IMG/VR virus record: IMGVR_UViG_3300017727_000107
Coordinates: 1-28,843 of that record
Strand: one strand, 5' to 3'
DNA: 28,843 nt
Source: a virus
Below, piece after piece: positions 310 through 10,177 of the stretch (position 1 is its first letter; every line of letters starts with the position of its first letter). The notes under the pieces were generated by a model. It saw only the letters and a list, made by a program, of their open reading frames with translations. It was not told where the DNA came from and did not search any database. Position numbers and translations under genes: made by a program.

Positions 310-1149
310 ATGGCAAAAACAAACATCAGCAACACCCGACTTAAGCGCATGTTGAACATCACCAAGCGCAAGCAGACCGTCAACGGCAAGCAACAGGCGC
401 AGGTTGAATCCTGTGTATTAGTCTGTGAGGAAAACACCGCACGAATATGCAGCCTAACCCGCGACTTGACTGGACTCACCGAAGTCACCACTGCATGCGT
501 TGGTGGCGGCTCCTTCCCCATTCCCGACATTGACCGTGTGCTTGGGGTTCTTGCTTTGCATGGAGAAAACCTCACTATTTCTTGGGAGGCTGGCAAGTTG
601 CGCTTCAAGTCGGCTGGCAAACAAACCACACTTGATGCTTCTTTTGACGCAAAAGCATTTACTCACAGTCAAGAAAGCATCATGGATTTCATGGTCCGCT
701 CGCAATCTCTCGCAGACAAAATCAACGCCAACATGGGAACATACACCTTAAGCGACGGAACCAAGCAACATTCGTTCTGTGCTTTTTCGGTAAATGTAGC
801 CGACCTTTACGATGCTTGCCGATGCGACACCATCAACGGCCAACGCCTCAACCGCTACACCTTCAAGGTTGATTTGGAAGAAAGTCTTGATATTGAAATC
901 ACCGTTGGTGACCCGACGCTCGGACAAACGACCAGCATCATCACCGTTGAGAATCCGACGACACAACCGATTCATCCGGACTGTGCTTTCACTTGGGACT
1001 TTGACGGTGGCCTTGACGAATTGTTCAAGGGTTTTACCGGCAAAGCAACTTTGAATTTCTTTGACTTCCGTGAACACGGTCAAGGCATCCGTTTTTCCGT
1101 TTCCTTCGGCAACGGCGAATGGGCTTGGGCGGCAGGAATATTGAAGTGA
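310..1149 (+). CDS. Probable DNA sliding clamp (PCNA-like)
   Basis: This 279-residue protein is rich in beta strands and has the general pattern of a two-domain sliding clamp. The C-terminal part (about residues 230-270) has the clamp-like order of a helix (LDELFKGF), a strand with an acidic turn, and a final hydrophobic strand (IRFSVSF). It is slightly longer than archaeal PCNA (about 245-250 residues). It begins with ATG at 310 behind a perfect GGAGGT (297-302); a longer reading from 190 only extends into the upstream gene's other frame. A ring-shaped clamp tethers the replicative polymerase to DNA, and PolB lies four genes downstream. The family call rests on overall pattern and context, because clamps have few invariant residues; another beta-rich DNA-binding protein cannot be excluded. 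Confidence 0.6.
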   Translation: MAKTNISNTRLKRMLNITKRKQTVNGKQQAQVESCVLVCEENTARICSLTRDLTGLTEVTTACVGGGSFPIPDIDRVLGVLALHGENLTISWEAGKLRFKSAGKQTTLDASFDAKAFTHSQESIMDFMVRSQSLADKINANMGTYTLSDGTKQHSFCAFSVNVADLYDACRCDTINGQRLNRYTFKVDLEESLDIEITVGDPTLGQTTSIITVENPTTQPIHPDCAFTWDFDGGLDELFKGFTGKATLNFFDFREHGQGIRFSVSFGNGEWAWAAGILK

Positions 1150-1175
1150 ACAACATGGGGGTTTGGTCAAGGTTT

Positions 1176-1239
1176 TGGTCCTAAAGATGCGAAGTCCTCC
1201 GACTGACCATAGGGGTTGTGCATTCCCCTTGCATCTTTA
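1176..1239 (+). promoter_or_regulatory. Structured intergenic RNA element, possible pseudoknot
   Basis: The 117-nt gap after the clamp gene holds a perfect 9-bp inverted repeat, TAAAGATGC (1182-1190) with GCATCTTTA (1231-1239). Inside it GGGG (1212-1215) can pair with CCCC (1225-1228). TGGTC (1176-1180) can also pair with GACCA (1205-1209); because those pairs cross the outer stem, the whole could fold as a pseudoknot. It lies just upstream of the winged-helix gene's ribosome-binding site, so control of its translation, transcript processing or termination are all possible. No promoter-like TATA box is evident here. Confidence 0.5.
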
Positions 1240-1266
1240 CCCCGCCTGTTGTTTGAGGTTTTTATT

Positions 1267-1590
1267 ATGACAGAAGCACAGAAGGTTAGGAATGGCACTA
1301 TGAAGTTATTGAGCGACGAACAGGTTTCCCATCTTTTGGAGCGCATGGGTGACAGACCATCTATGCGTCGGGTGTATCTCAAGTTGGCTTGTCTCGCTGT
1401 TCTTCGTTATGACGCTAATGGAAGATATTTGAACGCTTCACAGATAGTGGCTTTAGCGGAAAAGTATTTGCCAAAAACCGTTGGTATGAGCGCACAACAG
1501 GTCGGGACTATTCTTGGGACTCTTTGTAGGATGAAAATTGTCAATCGTTCTTACGAAAGACCTCATACCTACTGGTGGAGGGATAAATGA
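1267..1590 (+). CDS. Winged-helix-like small protein
   Basis: This 107-residue protein starts at ATG 1267 behind GAGGT (1255-1259); an upstream in-frame ATG at 1216 lies inside the intergenic hairpin and has no binding site. Residues about 30-105 read as a winged helix: a helix pair around LACLAVLRYD, a helix after LNASQIVALAEKYL, a recognition-type helix SAQQVGTILGTLCRM, then a short hairpin wing (IVNRSYERPHTYWW). Such domains usually bind DNA, so this may be a viral transcription or replication regulator. It follows the structured element and overlaps the next gene by 4 nt (ATGA). No close family is recognised. Confidence 0.65.
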   Translation: MTEAQKVRNGTMKLLSDEQVSHLLERMGDRPSMRRVYLKLACLAVLRYDANGRYLNASQIVALAEKYLPKTVGMSAQQVGTILGTLCRMKIVNRSYERPHTYWWRDK

Positions 1591-1718
1591 TGTGGTATGA
1601 CTGTAAGTCTTGCGGTAAAAGAAAATACACATCATGGTCAAAAAGGAAGGGGCCGGTGAAGTGCGCTCGCTGTTGCCGCTTGGAAAGGGAGGGTCGTCTT
1701 GAGTCGCAGTCCCCGTAA
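1587..1718 (+). CDS. Zinc-ribbon microprotein (43 aa)
   Basis: This 43-residue basic protein starts with ATGATG overlapping the previous stop codon (ATGA), with GGAGG in the end of the upstream gene as its ribosome-binding site. It has two knuckles, CKSC (residues 6-9) and CARC (26-29), 16 residues apart, which is the arrangement of a zinc ribbon, embedded in Lys- and Arg-rich sequence. A nucleic-acid-binding role is likely from the fold. It forms a tight cluster with the winged-helix gene before it and another Cys-rich microprotein after it. Confidence 0.6.
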   Translation: MMWYDCKSCGKRKYTSWSKRKGPVKCARCCRLEREGRLESQSP

Positions 1719-1836
1719 ATGCCTTCGTCGCTGCACGGGCTGTGGCGTGGAGAGAATGACATCTATGACTAACCACAAAGTAATGACCGCAGGTGTTAGG
1801 CGGCAGTGTGGGATATTTAGGGTGGCTGACCGTTAA
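1699..1836 (+). CDS. Cys-rich basic microprotein (45 aa)
   Basis: A second tiny frame overlaps the previous gene by 20 nt. It starts with TTG at 1699 behind GGGAGGGT (1687-1694), a strong purine-rich site with normal spacing. The 45-residue product has a Cys cluster CLRRCTGC (residues 8-15) and a lone later Cys (CGIF), so it may bind zinc, and it is strongly basic. The support is the good ribosome-binding site and the similarity of style to its neighbour. The non-ATG start and small size leave real doubt. Confidence 0.42.
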   Translation: MSRSPRKCLRRCTGCGVERMTSMTNHKVMTAGVRRQCGIFRVADR

Positions 1837-1848
1837 GGTATCAATGGT

Positions 1849-1877
1849 TTTATATTGTATGCAGGTGTGGATATAAC
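1849..1877 (+). promoter_or_regulatory. Putative archaeal promoter for the HTH gene
   Basis: TTTATATT begins at 1849, 29 nt before the ATG at 1878. Archaeal transcription usually starts about 25 nt downstream of a TATA box, so the mRNA would be leaderless or nearly so. Nineteen nucleotides on a 22-nt frame are shared with the site at 5665-5686 (two differences), including GCAGGT at its centre. Confidence 0.55.
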
Positions 1878-2186
1878 ATGGTTGAAGTGGTTGACCCTAA
1901 CAGCGGCGAATGGGTTCGTGTGTGCGATGCACAATTTACGGAATCCGGTTTCCAAAGACACGAAATCAACAGTGGAGACGGGGATGTTCTCGTCGTTGAA
2001 ATCAAACACTTCATTAAACCGGCTAAACCACTGTATCACCGAAAGGAGTGGTTGGAGGAAGAATATATCGGTAAAAATAGAACGATGGCCGAGATTGCAG
2101 GACAATTCGGGATTACACCGATGAGTATTCACCAATGGCTCGTCAAGCATAACATTCCAACAAGAGGCCGTGGACGACGAGCGTGA
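1878..2186 (+). CDS. HTH-domain DNA-binding protein
   Basis: This is a 102-residue protein. The N-terminal half (1-50) is acidic and beta-like. The C-terminal half (about 52-98) is a helix-turn-helix of the type common in phage proteins: WLEEEYIGKNRTMAEIAGQF, then a turn, ITPMSIHQWLVKHNI, then a basic tail RGRGRRA. The HTH should bind DNA. It may be an early regulator of the virus, since it has its own TATA box and lies directly before the polymerase gene, which also has one. No narrower family assignment is possible. Confidence 0.7.
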   Translation: MVEVVDPNSGEWVRVCDAQFTESGFQRHEINSGDGDVLVVEIKHFIKPAKPLYHRKEWLEEEYIGKNRTMAEIAGQFGITPMSIHQWLVKHNIPTRGRGRRA

Positions 2187-2191
2187 AACCC

Positions 2192-2219
2192 TTATAAACC
2201 TACACGGTAAGGGTCATTT
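2192..2219 (+). promoter_or_regulatory. Putative archaeal promoter for PolB
   Basis: TTATAAA starts at 2192, 28 nt before the PolB ATG, with GGTAAGG at 2206-2212. There is no clear Shine-Dalgarno between it and the start codon. This agrees with a leaderless transcript and matches the layout before 6352. Confidence 0.6.
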
Positions 2220-4460
2220 ATGATTGTGGAGCAAGTAGGACGCAACGATGTGTTGGTTCGTTATCGTGATGCCAACAACAACCGACAACAAACGGCAATC
2301 AAAGACAGACTTCCCTATCTCTATCTTCGTGATGAAGATGCACAGTTTGTTCACGAGCAGAAGGAGTCGGGCTACACAGGCGTTTTCGGTGAACCTTTGA
2401 CGAAGGTCACTTGTTATACGACGGACGCTGTTCGCAACATTGCTAAGACCGGTCTTTCATGGGAAGGGAACATCCCGTTCACGAATCAAGTGTTGACGGC
2501 TCGTGTGAAGGGTGGCGACAAACCCTTTCCTTCCTACAAACATCGCGTTTGGTATCTTGACGGCGAATGGAAAACAGATAGCGGTCAAATCACGATGCTT
2601 ACGGTCTATGATAATTTTACCGAAAATCTGTATTCTTGGGCGGTTCTGCCTAATGGTGTTGCGTTGAATGCTGAACAAACAGGCAAGAAAGACTTCCTGT
2701 TTGATGCCAACGGAAACAGATATGATTACGATACTCCTGTTCTTCTTTTCAACACGGAAGCCGAATTGCTTACCCACTTCACGGCGTTTATGCGAAAGCA
2801 AGACCCCGACATCATCACCGGCTGGTATGTCGCTGGTGCAGACTTGAAGCAAATCGTTGAGCGGTGCAACAAAGTGGGCGTTCGTGCGTCTAACATGTCG
2901 CCTCTCAACCGCATTCGCTACGACTTCGGTGATTGGGCGCAACCCATCGTCGGACGGAATGTCATTGACTTGCGCCTCGCTTTCCCTAAGTTGTGGGAGT
3001 TGAAGAATGGCAAGTTGCCAAATTACAAATTGGGTGATGTTGCTTGGGAATGTTTAGGGGAAAAGAAAACCGAATTGTCCGACGGACACGACACCTACTA
3101 CAGCGACCCAATTCTTTACCTTGAATACAACCGACAGGATGTGCGCTTGCTTCCTCGTTTGAACAGACTCGTCAACGCTTTGGAGTATTTTATTGCGGTC
3201 CAACATATCTCTCAATGTGAAATCCGTAGCACCCCGTTCATCACGCAGGTCTTTACCTGCCTTGCTTTGGGCGACCCCGATTTCAAGAAACAAATCCCTT
3301 CCAAACCAATGTTTGACAAGGTGAATTATGACGGCGCAATCGTCATGGACGGAGAGAAGGGTATTTACCAAAACATCGGTATTTTTGATGTAAAAGCAAT
3401 GTATCACAGCAACGCTGACCTCCACAATATCTCATGGGACACGCTTTCTCACGGCGGTAAGGACTGTGGGAATGGGACTCGGTTCTCACAGGAGAAGAAG
3501 GGGTTGTTGGTGCGACAGATGGACAACATGACGGTTCTCCGTGACCACTACAAGCAACTGATGAAGGATGCTACAACGGACGAAGAACGGGTGCGCTATG
3601 ACGCCCTGCAATACGCCACGAAGTCTCTCGTCGCATCCATGTATGGCGTTGCTGGCGATTCCAAGTATGGGCTGTATCACCCCGACATCGCCGCCGCAAT
3701 CACTTTTACCTCAAGACAAACCTTGCTCAAGTTGAAGGAAGTTGCCGAGGACTTAGGACATCCTGTGGTCTATGGACACACCGACTCGGTGATGTGTAGG
3801 GTTAGGAATCCCGACGATGGCGAAATCTCGCTCCACGAAATAAACGCTCGGATGCACCCCATCATCGTGCAATTTGAGAAGTGGTCGTCGTCATTCATCC
3901 TCATGGAGAAGAACCGCTACGCTGGTCTCGTGTGTTGGACGGACGGGGAAAGCCATCAACCCAAGCGGTATGTGAAGGGTATTGAGTTGAAGCAAAACCG
4001 GATGCCTCCCGTGATGAAGGACGCTATGGGTAAAGTCATTGACGGCATCCTCGGCGGTTATCACGAAGAACAAGTCACATCCCCGTTGGTTAAACTGATT
4101 GATGAAATAATTGCGGGAAAAACAAACGACATGGATTTGTGTATGAAAGGTAAGTTGGCTAAGAATCTCAACGAATACCGAAGTGTTAGTGGTTCTGCTG
4201 CTGGCGCACAGTGGGCCAACAGGACACTCGGAAAGGGTTATCGTGCCAACGATTATTTCCTTGTGGCTATTGACCCCAAGGGACAATACCTCGCCTTTGA
4301 CGACCCGTCGGAGATTGAGGGTATCGCTGAAATTGGTTATCGCACAATGGTTGAAAGATTTATTGTCAAGAAGGTTTTACCTTATTACGAAGTTGCGAAG
4401 TGGGATATTACCCCCCTGTATCGCGCTGTTGAAGGCAAATCACGGATGGCTTGGTTATGA
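2220..4460 (+). CDS. polB: Family B DNA polymerase
   Basis: This 746-residue protein is a replicative DNA polymerase with proofreading exonuclease. Exonuclease motifs: D114/E116 (LDGEW), D208 (GADL) and YNRQD (303-307). Polymerase motif A is DVKAMYHS (390-397), motif B is KSLVASMYG (468-476) and motif C is YGHTDS (518-523); KNRYAG and VKGIEL follow in the thumb region. The length is typical of compact archaeal and viral PolB. Two residues depart from the common pattern: motif B has Ala where Asn is usual (NSxYG), and motif C has His in place of the first Asp of DTDS. The metal-binding Asp of motif A and the second Asp of motif C (D522) are kept, so activity is expected. It has its own TATA box, and its stop overlaps the methyltransferase start (ATGA). 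Confidence 0.95.
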   Translation: MIVEQVGRNDVLVRYRDANNNRQQTAIKDRLPYLYLRDEDAQFVHEQKESGYTGVFGEPLTKVTCYTTDAVRNIAKTGLSWEGNIPFTNQVLTARVKGGDKPFPSYKHRVWYLDGEWKTDSGQITMLTVYDNFTENLYSWAVLPNGVALNAEQTGKKDFLFDANGNRYDYDTPVLLFNTEAELLTHFTAFMRKQDPDIITGWYVAGADLKQIVERCNKVGVRASNMSPLNRIRYDFGDWAQPIVGRNVIDLRLAFPKLWELKNGKLPNYKLGDVAWECLGEKKTELSDGHDTYYSDPILYLEYNRQDVRLLPRLNRLVNALEYFIAVQHISQCEIRSTPFITQVFTCLALGDPDFKKQIPSKPMFDKVNYDGAIVMDGEKGIYQNIGIFDVKAMYHSNADLHNISWDTLSHGGKDCGNGTRFSQEKKGLLVRQMDNMTVLRDHYKQLMKDATTDEERVRYDALQYATKSLVASMYGVAGDSKYGLYHPDIAAAITFTSRQTLLKLKEVAEDLGHPVVYGHTDSVMCRVRNPDDGEISLHEINARMHPIIVQFEKWSSSFILMEKNRYAGLVCWTDGESHQPKRYVKGIELKQNRMPPVMKDAMGKVIDGILGGYHEEQVTSPLVKLIDEIIAGKTNDMDLCMKGKLAKNLNEYRSVSGSAAGAQWANRTLGKGYRANDYFLVAIDPKGQYLAFDDPSEIEGIAEIGYRTMVERFIVKKVLPYYEVAKWDITPLYRAVEGKSRMAWL

Positions 4461-7397: not shown

Positions 7398-8146
7398 GAA
7401 ATGAGATTTTGTGCGGCGATGTGTTGGACAGACTCGCTGGACTGCCGGACGAGTCCGTAGACATCGTGGTGACAAGTCCCCCTTACAACCTCAAGACTTC
7501 AACCGGAAACGGCATGAAGGATGGAAGGGGTAGCAAGTGGACTTCCGCTGACAAAGGTTTGCGTGAAGGCTACGCAAAACATAACGATTCTATGAACCGA
7601 GAGGACTACATCAATTGGATGAACAAGGTTTTATCGGAAATCTTTCGTGTTTTGAAGCCCGAAGGTGCGTTGTTTTTCAACCACAAATTTCGTGTGCAGG
7701 GGGGCTTAATGGAAGGACACCCGTTCCTTGAAGGTTTTAATGTGAGACAGATGATTATTTGGGCAAGGTCGGGTGGTTTCAATTTCAATGCCGGTTATTT
7801 CGTTCCTACATACGAAGTCGTTTATTTGATGCCAAAGACACCAAAGGGAAAAAACTCTTTCAAATTAAAGAAGGGAGCAAACAAAATCGGTGATGTTTGG
7901 AGAATACATCAAGAAACCAACAACCCTCACCCTGCACCTTTTCCTGTGGGCTTGGTGGACAACATTTTGCTTTCATGTGAAGGTAGTGTCGTTCTTGACC
8001 CTTTCGGCGGTTCGGGAACGGTGGGTGTTTCGGCTATTAAGAACGGATGGGACTACATTTTGATTGACAATAGCGAGGACTATTGCAGAATGGCTGAAAA
8101 CAGAATCAATTCGGAGGTGGCTCAAAGTGAAAATGAATGGCTTTGA
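7382..8146 (+). CDS. DNA methyltransferase, TSPPYN type (N4-cytosine or N6-adenine)
   Basis: This 254-residue beta-class amino-methyltransferase has catalytic motif TSPPYN at 31-36 and AdoMet loop LDPFGGSGT near residue 208, with PFPVGLVDNIL before it. TSPPY enzymes methylate either N4 of cytosine or N6 of adenine, so the modified base is not decided by sequence alone. I chose ATG 7382 over GTG 7361 because it is an ATG with AAGGATTG upstream and because conserved sequence begins at residue 8. It overlaps the zinc-ribbon gene by 16 nt. As with the first methyltransferase, no endonuclease partner is adjacent. It is much shorter than the DPPY enzyme and has little room for a separate recognition domain. 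Confidence 0.9.
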   Translation: MDAGLRNEILCGDVLDRLAGLPDESVDIVVTSPPYNLKTSTGNGMKDGRGSKWTSADKGLREGYAKHNDSMNREDYINWMNKVLSEIFRVLKPEGALFFNHKFRVQGGLMEGHPFLEGFNVRQMIIWARSGGFNFNAGYFVPTYEVVYLMPKTPKGKNSFKLKKGANKIGDVWRIHQETNNPHPAPFPVGLVDNILLSCEGSVVLDPFGGSGTVGVSAIKNGWDYILIDNSEDYCRMAENRINSEVAQSENEWL

Positions 8147-9457: not shown

Positions 9458-10177
9458 ATGCTTCTCATAGACCACCGTGAAAACCCAAAACTGATTCACA
9501 AATTGCTCGTCAAGTTGGGAGATGCAGATAAGGACGAAAGAGGACACGCCCGAACCTTGCAGATGACGAGCGGGGATTATGTGCTTGGTGATTGGGGAAT
9601 AGAGGCAAAAGAAATCAACGACCTTTATCGCTCCATCCTCGGCATCGGACGCTCACGAACAATTGTCGCCCAACTCACCGACCTATGCGAATCGTTTGAG
9701 AAGCCGTTCCTCGTGGTCTATAACACAGAGTTGAAGCCTTGGTTCCACGGACGAAGGCCTTCGGCCCGTGAGACATCCGAAGAACGACGCAAGATGGCGG
9801 CTGTCATCCATTCGTTCAAGTTGACGATGCACCAACGCTTTCCCAAGTTGCACTTCCTCCAACTGACGACGATGGACGACTTCGTGGAATGGCTTTACAT
9901 GAATCATCGTCAAACTCTTATCGCAAAAGTAAAACCACCGAAGGCACACAAGCCGGAACAGGTTGTTCTTGAAGAGACTGATGATAGGATAAAAGCATTG
10001 ATGGGGTGCGGCATCTCACGAGAACAGTCCGTCGCTCTGCTTGAACACTATGGCTCAATCAGCGTTCTCTTGCAGAAGAAAACCCGACAAAAAGAAATGA
10101 CAAAAGTAAGTGGTATCACCCACAAACAGGCCAAGCGGGTATTGTCTTTACGCAAAAACTTCACTGATAAGGCGTGA
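9458..10177 (+). CDS. ERCC4/XPF-type nuclease with helix-hairpin-helix
   Basis: This 239-residue protein has the nuclease core of the XPF/Mus81 family: DHRE (5-8), GDY (39-41) and IEAKEINDL (48-56), which corresponds to the family IERKxxxDL with Ala in place of Arg. E49, K51 and D55 of the metal site are kept. The C-terminal segment (about 175-232) has two helix-hairpin-helix-like units (MGCGISREQSVALLEHYGSI and VSGITHKQAKRVLSL) that bind DNA. It would cut branched DNA such as flaps or recombination intermediates made during viral replication. It is the last gene of the + strand module and its end overlaps the convergent tail hub gene by 17 nt. ERCC4 nucleases are a known part of archaeal virus replication gene sets. 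Confidence 0.9.
   Translation: MLLIDHRENPKLIHKLLVKLGDADKDERGHARTLQMTSGDYVLGDWGIEAKEINDLYRSILGIGRSRTIVAQLTDLCESFEKPFLVVYNTELKPWFHGRRPSARETSEERRKMAAVIHSFKLTMHQRFPKLHFLQLTTMDDFVEWLYMNHRQTLIAKVKPPKAHKPEQVVLEETDDRIKALMGCGISREQSVALLEHYGSISVLLQKKTRQKEMTKVSGITHKQAKRVLSLRKNFTDKA

Follow-up and report, generated by a model that had tools for sequence, protein, structure and literature searches.

A predicted pseudoknotted RNA element between the sliding clamp and winged-helix genes of uncultured tailed viruses

What lies between the sliding clamp gene and the winged-helix gene of an uncultured tailed virus, and does it act as an RNA? The locus belongs to the IMG/VR virus record IMGVR_UViG_3300017727_000107 (positions 1-28,843, the whole stretch analysed, hereafter the window), where the gap 1150-1266 is flanked by the clamp stop codon (TGA, 1147-1149) and by the winged-helix start codon (ATG, from 1267). 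A preliminary description had called it the only sizeable gap in the replication module. This is roughly right for the module, but 1591-1854 is also devoid of plus-strand ORFs of at least 60 aa. At least one small frame falls in that interval (1587-1718), directly 3' of the winged-helix gene; it encodes 43 residues with paired cysteines (CKSCGK...CARCC) and resembles, by eye, a zinc ribbon.

The clamp gene (310-1149, plus strand) encodes a protein for which profile searches of Pfam, PHROG and NCBIfam returned no match. Its AlphaFold2 model (pLDDT 84.4) matches bacterial DNA polymerase III beta clamps and PCNA in Foldseek, with a best E of 5e-10. The AlphaFold2 model (pLDDT 87.6) of the winged-helix gene product (1267-1590, plus strand) has Foldseek matches that are mostly winged-helix regulators, with a best E of 8e-3 and nothing at E<=0.001; the sequence also has a sub-threshold match (E 0.021) to Phage_rep_org_N, the domain of phage replisome organisers. 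For the downstream family-B polymerase, haloviruses rank first among phage records with 23% identity, and cyanophages and others match too. Positions 9458-10177 match a Hef nuclease model with E 1.6e-10, far under the cut-off of that model. The host is likely archaeal. No DNA match to 310-4460 and no clamp protein match were found among phage records.

The element is about 105 nt long on the plus strand. Comparison among relatives shows the overall layout of the predicted fold: P0 forms an outer stem around a pseudoknot made by the crossing of P1 and P2, the hairpin P4 is fitted between these two helices almost or entirely without linker, and the segment between P2 and P1 exposes an invariant CUCC. 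P0 shares one base with the clamp stop codon. Its outer part, P0a, pairs AACAACA (1149-1155) with TGTTGTT (1247-1253) as inverted repeat I1, and its inner part, P0b, pairs four bases of GGGGG (1157-1161) with CCCC (1240-1243). They are separated by an internal loop with U (1156) opposite GCC (1244-1246), where CATGG and NCC recur among relatives and L081 deviates. P1 is made of TGGTC (1164-1168) and GACCA (1205-1209), and P2 of TAAAGATGC (1182-1190) and GCATCTTTA (1231-1239), where an AAA in the 5' strand recurs in relatives even where it is unpaired. A CCUCC loop occupies 1196-1200, with CUCC invariant in 19/19 sequences of alignment A9, and a possible short P3 (GUC/GAC, 1194-1203) surrounds it. 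P4 (1210-1230) pairs (U)AGGGG (1210-1215) with CCCCU(U) (1225-1230) and abuts both P1 and P2. Directly after P0 we read GAGG (1255-1258), which we take to be Shine-Dalgarno-like; relatives have GAGGTG, GGTGAT or GGTTGAT at this position.

The complementary segments pointed out in the preliminary description are all present. The perfect 9-bp inverted repeat is found by an inverted-repeat search and corresponds to P2, and the inner GGGG/CCCC pair (1212-1215/1225-1228) lies in P4. The crossing TGGTC/GACCA pair exists too, and it covaries, but its 5' partner is by homology 1164-1168 and not the copy at 1176-1180, since the P1 5' strand of the relatives directly follows the G-run. The outer arm pair (1149-1161/1241-1253) is an inverted repeat which that description had missed. 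The two copies of TGGTC in the window lie 12 nt apart, as they do in L001-L003 and L022, and the second copy is absent from L004, L006 and L011. Where present, it could compete with the first copy for GACCA, so acting as a switch of register.

Taken from the window sequence alone, the evidence is modest: a perfect repeat of at least 9 bp arose in 46 of 2000 dinucleotide shuffles of the 117-nt segment (2.3%), and of the 246 tiles into which the window was cut, 2 contain one. The folding energy is ordinary (MFE z -0.85), with 40 of 200 shuffles folding equally well. Since this single-sequence evidence is weak, the proof has to be comparative.

Searching IMG/VR with the clamp yielded 38 loci, and 48 loci with an alignment, mostly on the same contigs, while the winged-helix protein retrieved 45 loci on contigs already found. 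The element is present in 41 of the 47 clamp loci with an inspected downstream gap, many of them near-duplicates, and is missing from the other six (L005, L007, L008, L009, L010 and L038). Pair counts were made on the 19 distinct sequences of A9, from which sequences identical or nearly identical in the helices had been dropped (L001-L003, L012, L014, L018-L022, L026-L031, L033, L035, L036, L064, L065, L068, L069 and L082). In A9, whose strands were hand-picked per sequence, like those of A6, with a leaning towards structure that the slid controls and swap tests address only partly, 91.5% of the cells are paired, against 65.2% in shuffles. Of the 27 pairs, 21 show double changes; the doubly changed cells number 138, where 41 are expected, and slid versions reach covariation scores of 0.044-0.175, compared with 0.708 for the true pairing. 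In these entries, two A's of L024 and L084 are counted in both P1 and P4, the P0a of L081 is given as N, two loop-adjacent bases are skipped in the P0a of L016, and L017 retains its bulged letters, at the price of some pairs.

In P1, 88.4% of cells are paired and 5/5 pairs are doubly changed; in P2, 96.8% of cells are paired and all 5 inner pairs counted are doubly changed (19 sequences in both cases). The crossing helix reads TGGTC/GACCA in the window, ACACA/TGTGT in L004, GCACG/CGTGC in L011, TCCGC/GTGGA in L015, AGGTT/AACCT in L067, TGTCA/TGGCA in L081 and TGCGT/GTGCG in L161; it is weakest in L025, L032 and L034 (3/5 pairs), followed by L024 and L084 (4/5). Double changes are also found at the outer 4 of 7 pairs of P0a and at 4 of 6 pairs of P4, including its outer pairs 32-43 and 33-42. 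Two of the four P0b pairs are composed of GC:15 AU:2 UG:2 and GC:16 UG:2 UA:1. The knotted shape predicted here, and not its letters, is kept across many related viruses. The preliminary description had proposed a functional pseudoknotted RNA, and had named as the observation that would speak against it relatives that share the gene order but lack compensatory changes; the outcome is the opposite, and the double changes in both the crossing helix and the repeat support its proposal. G-U outnumbers A-C by 31 to 3 in P0b, P1, P2 and P4, and one P4 pair retains a G-U wobble in 15 of 19 sequences; in P0a the counts are 0 and 9, five of the nine A-C being at the innermost column in the L024/L025 group. 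Together, these counts and the kept wobble point to an RNA of the plus strand.

The fold was also examined by a swap test that uses no alignment, in which the energy of the two regions of each sequence is compared with that of regions swapped between sequences (100,000 permutations). With 12 representatives, the observed sum was reached by 13 permutations for P0a, 1 for P1 and none for P2, and by 460 for P4, whose two regions share bases. With ten deep representatives the numbers were 10 (P0a), 419 (P1) and 1 (P2), while three control pairings of unrelated regions showed no signal (31135, 92720 and 36736). P3 was not supported (7152 of 100,000). A covariance model, R1, was built from 17 sequences with a structure that we supplied (P0, P2 and P4, without P1). 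Outside its training set it matched four divergent sequences at E<=0.0004, L067 (1.5e-7), L161 (1e-6), L062 (9.8e-6) and L081 (3.5e-4), and it reached only E 0.06-0.26 on L061, L063, L064 and L065, the elements of L063-L065 scoring 15-16 bits. Unaided RNAalifold on the MAFFT alignment A4 recovered P0 only (8 pairs, energy -2.94), so that for P1, P2 and P4 the support comes from the curated strands, from the swap tests and from R1.

To which genes is the element attached? Two DNA patterns, one for each of two element types, were run against IMG/VR and gave 31 and 14 stretches. The 14 stretches of the first pattern that are not clamp loci were inspected and scored with R1, and none is an element; two stretches of the second pattern (L362 and L365) lie outside the known clamp contigs and have no R1 match. 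In whole records, R1 matched 18 of 26, with one clear match each, and missed L063, L064 and L065. A second weak match in the record of L036 (G018:C1:14485-14587, minus strand; 14 bits, E 0.039) is probably due to chance. In cellular genomes, the pattern of one element type hit at least 120 stretches; scoring 80 of these plus 2 viral ones with R1 gave three matches (best E 0.1), which we take as chance. A pattern for clamp relatives gave 48 stretches in cellular genomes, none of which was confirmed.

A search with the polymerase gave at least 80 loci, 43 of which were scored with R1 and 29 by protein profile search. L161 was the sole R1 match among the 43. A clamp is present at 26 of the 29 loci, and only L161 and L175 among these have a winged-helix gene (E<=0.01); R1, which also missed known weak members, matched 0 of the 24 clamp loci devoid of it. 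L175 (3520-3987) belongs to a more distant virus, in which a winged-helix-like gene, whose product has a long N-terminus, comes directly after the clamp, and R1 finds no match. In the loci searched, every element seen has a winged-helix gene behind it. So, within the searched set, the candidate element appears to accompany the winged-helix gene, and a clamp by itself is not enough.

On a clamp tree with 23 rows carrying the element and 3 lacking it, the distribution takes three changes, and well-supported branches impose no fewer than two of these, with the reservation that the tree has only three element-free rows and gave a long-branch warning. Three changes fit an old element lost repeatedly, and we suggest that it was probably lost two or three times. 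In the element-free L009, the winged-helix protein is 86% identical to that of the window. In L005, L007, L009 and L010, also devoid of the element, the clamp and winged-helix genes overlap or are 4-9 nt apart.

We consider, with a probability of roughly 55%, that the element is a cis-acting plus-strand leader, or operator, in the clamp-winged-helix mRNA, tuning translation of the winged-helix gene. P0 adjoins the ribosome-binding site and, when folded, would limit initiation there and uncouple winged-helix from clamp translation. The fold would probably be held by a protein or a small ligand reading the CUCC, AAA and NCC nucleotides, the winged-helix protein itself being one candidate partner. 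In relatives without the element, where the genes overlap or lie within 9 nt, translation would be coupled. Among the roles suggested in the preliminary description (a translation switch, a processing site, a small RNA, or a leader bound by the winged-helix protein), translation control appears to fit best because of the regular spacing between P0 and the start codon and because each element seen is followed by a winged-helix gene. This spacing is 12-19 nt in 17 of the 19 measured sequences with a non-coding element (12, 15 and 17 nt in L015, L016 and L161; L081 was left out of the survey), and the spacer carries a purine-rich GAGG, GGTG or GGTTGAT-like site. The two others, L017 and L020, have P0 54 nt from the start. 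Their spacer, longer than the 19 nt of L018, opens with an ATG directly after P0.

Other observations complicate this leader reading. In L061, L062, L063, L065 and L067 the winged-helix frame appears to continue upstream through the element. The fold would thus coexist with translation in this clade, where simple blocking of the ribosome site is excluded as the mechanism. The regions concerned (L061:1404-1526, L062:3831-3963, L063:3828-3950, L065:2464-2586 and L067:3826-3953) have no normal start codon right after the element; in L061, L063 and L065 an ATG overlaps the clamp stop (TGATG). Differences in this clade, by eye, are mainly at third positions around RNGT codons. It may represent an overlap of coding sequence and RNA structure, or else an unusual start. 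Against the leader reading also stands the loss of the element on two or three occasions while the winged-helix protein changed little.

Other roles have to be weighed against translation control. The element could be a processing or stability element, that is, a nuclease site or a barrier separating the clamp and winged-helix mRNAs. Its position exactly after the clamp stop would suit such a role, which is compatible with the in-frame clade and with dispensability, but 24 of 26 clamp loci have no winged-helix gene after the clamp, and the element was found at none of these; we consider such a role doubtful. We are a little more doubtful about a riboswitch of a new class, with the unpaired AAA, CUCC and NCC forming a metabolite or ion pocket and the P0 stem as output. 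In its favour are the conserved single-stranded letters within covarying helices and the pseudoknot with an extra hairpin, which is the layout of the three-stemmed fluoride and preQ1-II riboswitches (PMC11262651). These differ, however, in gene context, and the element was seen only ahead of one kind of viral replication gene. It also has no Rfam match: the window gave none in Rfam 15 at the gathering threshold, and for the region 1100-1320 only a snoRNA model at E 9 appeared in a search up to E 10. An origin of replication, or a primer RNA used by the winged-helix protein, is improbable. One clear match in each matching record, the location in the replication module and the weak Phage_rep_org_N matches would agree with it; on the other hand, at least two lineages lost the element, with no R1 match elsewhere in five element-free records (possibly fragments, and R1 can miss weak copies), and the conserved G-U pair points to RNA rather than DNA.

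Several narrower readings of its parts were discarded. That CCUCC pairs with the Shine-Dalgarno site downstream is contradicted, by eye, by the variation of that site (GAGG, GGTGAT, GGTTGAT or none) against an invariant CUCC. Pairing with the G-run of P0 is possible in several sequences; the G-run covaries with its C partner, which leaves the invariance unexplained. A terminator is disfavoured since no conserved U-run follows P0 in the spacers examined. Archaeal bulge-helix-bulge introns have two 3-nt bulges four pairs apart, and the P0 loop, by eye, has 1 nt opposite 3 nt. A self-cleaving ribozyme of the HDV type is very improbable, despite an identical strand order (P1, P2, loop, P1', P4, P2'), which phage theta ribozymes also have, and a C-rich loop where L3 would be. 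In HDV ribozymes, the CC of L3 pairs with a GG after P1' to form P1.1, giving a nested double pseudoknot. The invariant CUCC of the element would offer the first partner, but its invariant GG lies inside P4, whose neighbouring pairs covary, so that a GG free for P1.1 appears to be lacking. Moreover, P1 is short and has no fixed first G, and no Rfam HDV model matched up to E 10. P4 abuts P2, which leaves no J4/2 junction and no position for the catalytic cytosine, as these are described in PMC10879173. Finally, chance inverted repeats devoid of function would agree with the ordinary folding energy and with the frequency of such repeats in shuffles, but this reading is refuted by the compensatory changes, and the swap test and the distant copies found by R1 stand against it as well; we regard its probability as negligible.

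The translational leader proposed here has a parallel in phage T4. The autogenous operator of its gene 32 is a pseudoknot 5' of the ribosome-binding site, bound by gp32, and there was reportedly no sign of it in one relative, RB49 (both according to PMC535899). The likeness, in that a replication gene has a pseudoknot ahead of its Shine-Dalgarno site, holds for the non-coding lineages only. The T4 pseudoknot is about 28 nt long, in contrast to the element of about 105 nt with its enclosing P0 and its P4 (the sequences themselves were not compared), and none of the spacers examined has the UUAAA/UAAA repeats seen in T4 between pseudoknot and start codon. Another phage-encoded RNA, the VIPR vrRNA, is about 100 nt long and, in one of its clades, carries a pseudoknotted tail; it differs by 9-16 tandem YNNGG repeats before the tail (PMC13142463); six elements checked have at most 2, and the longest YNNGG run in the window, of 3, is at 7759, outside the element. 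Among the open-licence papers listed on structured RNAs from archaea, from their viruses and from phages, no motif beside a viral clamp gene came up, and the same holds for parts of the motif table of PMC2864571. From these comparisons, we rate the element as a putative new RNA family of a known general kind, the pseudoknotted leader.

More tentatively, it may be a lineage-confined new RNA class, in which the pseudoknot presenting CUCC would sense a ligand or a replication protein and set the ratio of clamp to winged-helix protein; in the one in-frame clade, the fold would act on ribosomes translating through it. In the literature searched, little has been described of structured control RNAs from tailed viruses that are uncultured and probably archaeal. 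The strong covariation, including that of the crossing helix, together with clear borders, element-free relatives and a ready gene context, makes the proposal directly testable, and the element may show by what means these viruses keep their replication proteins in balance.
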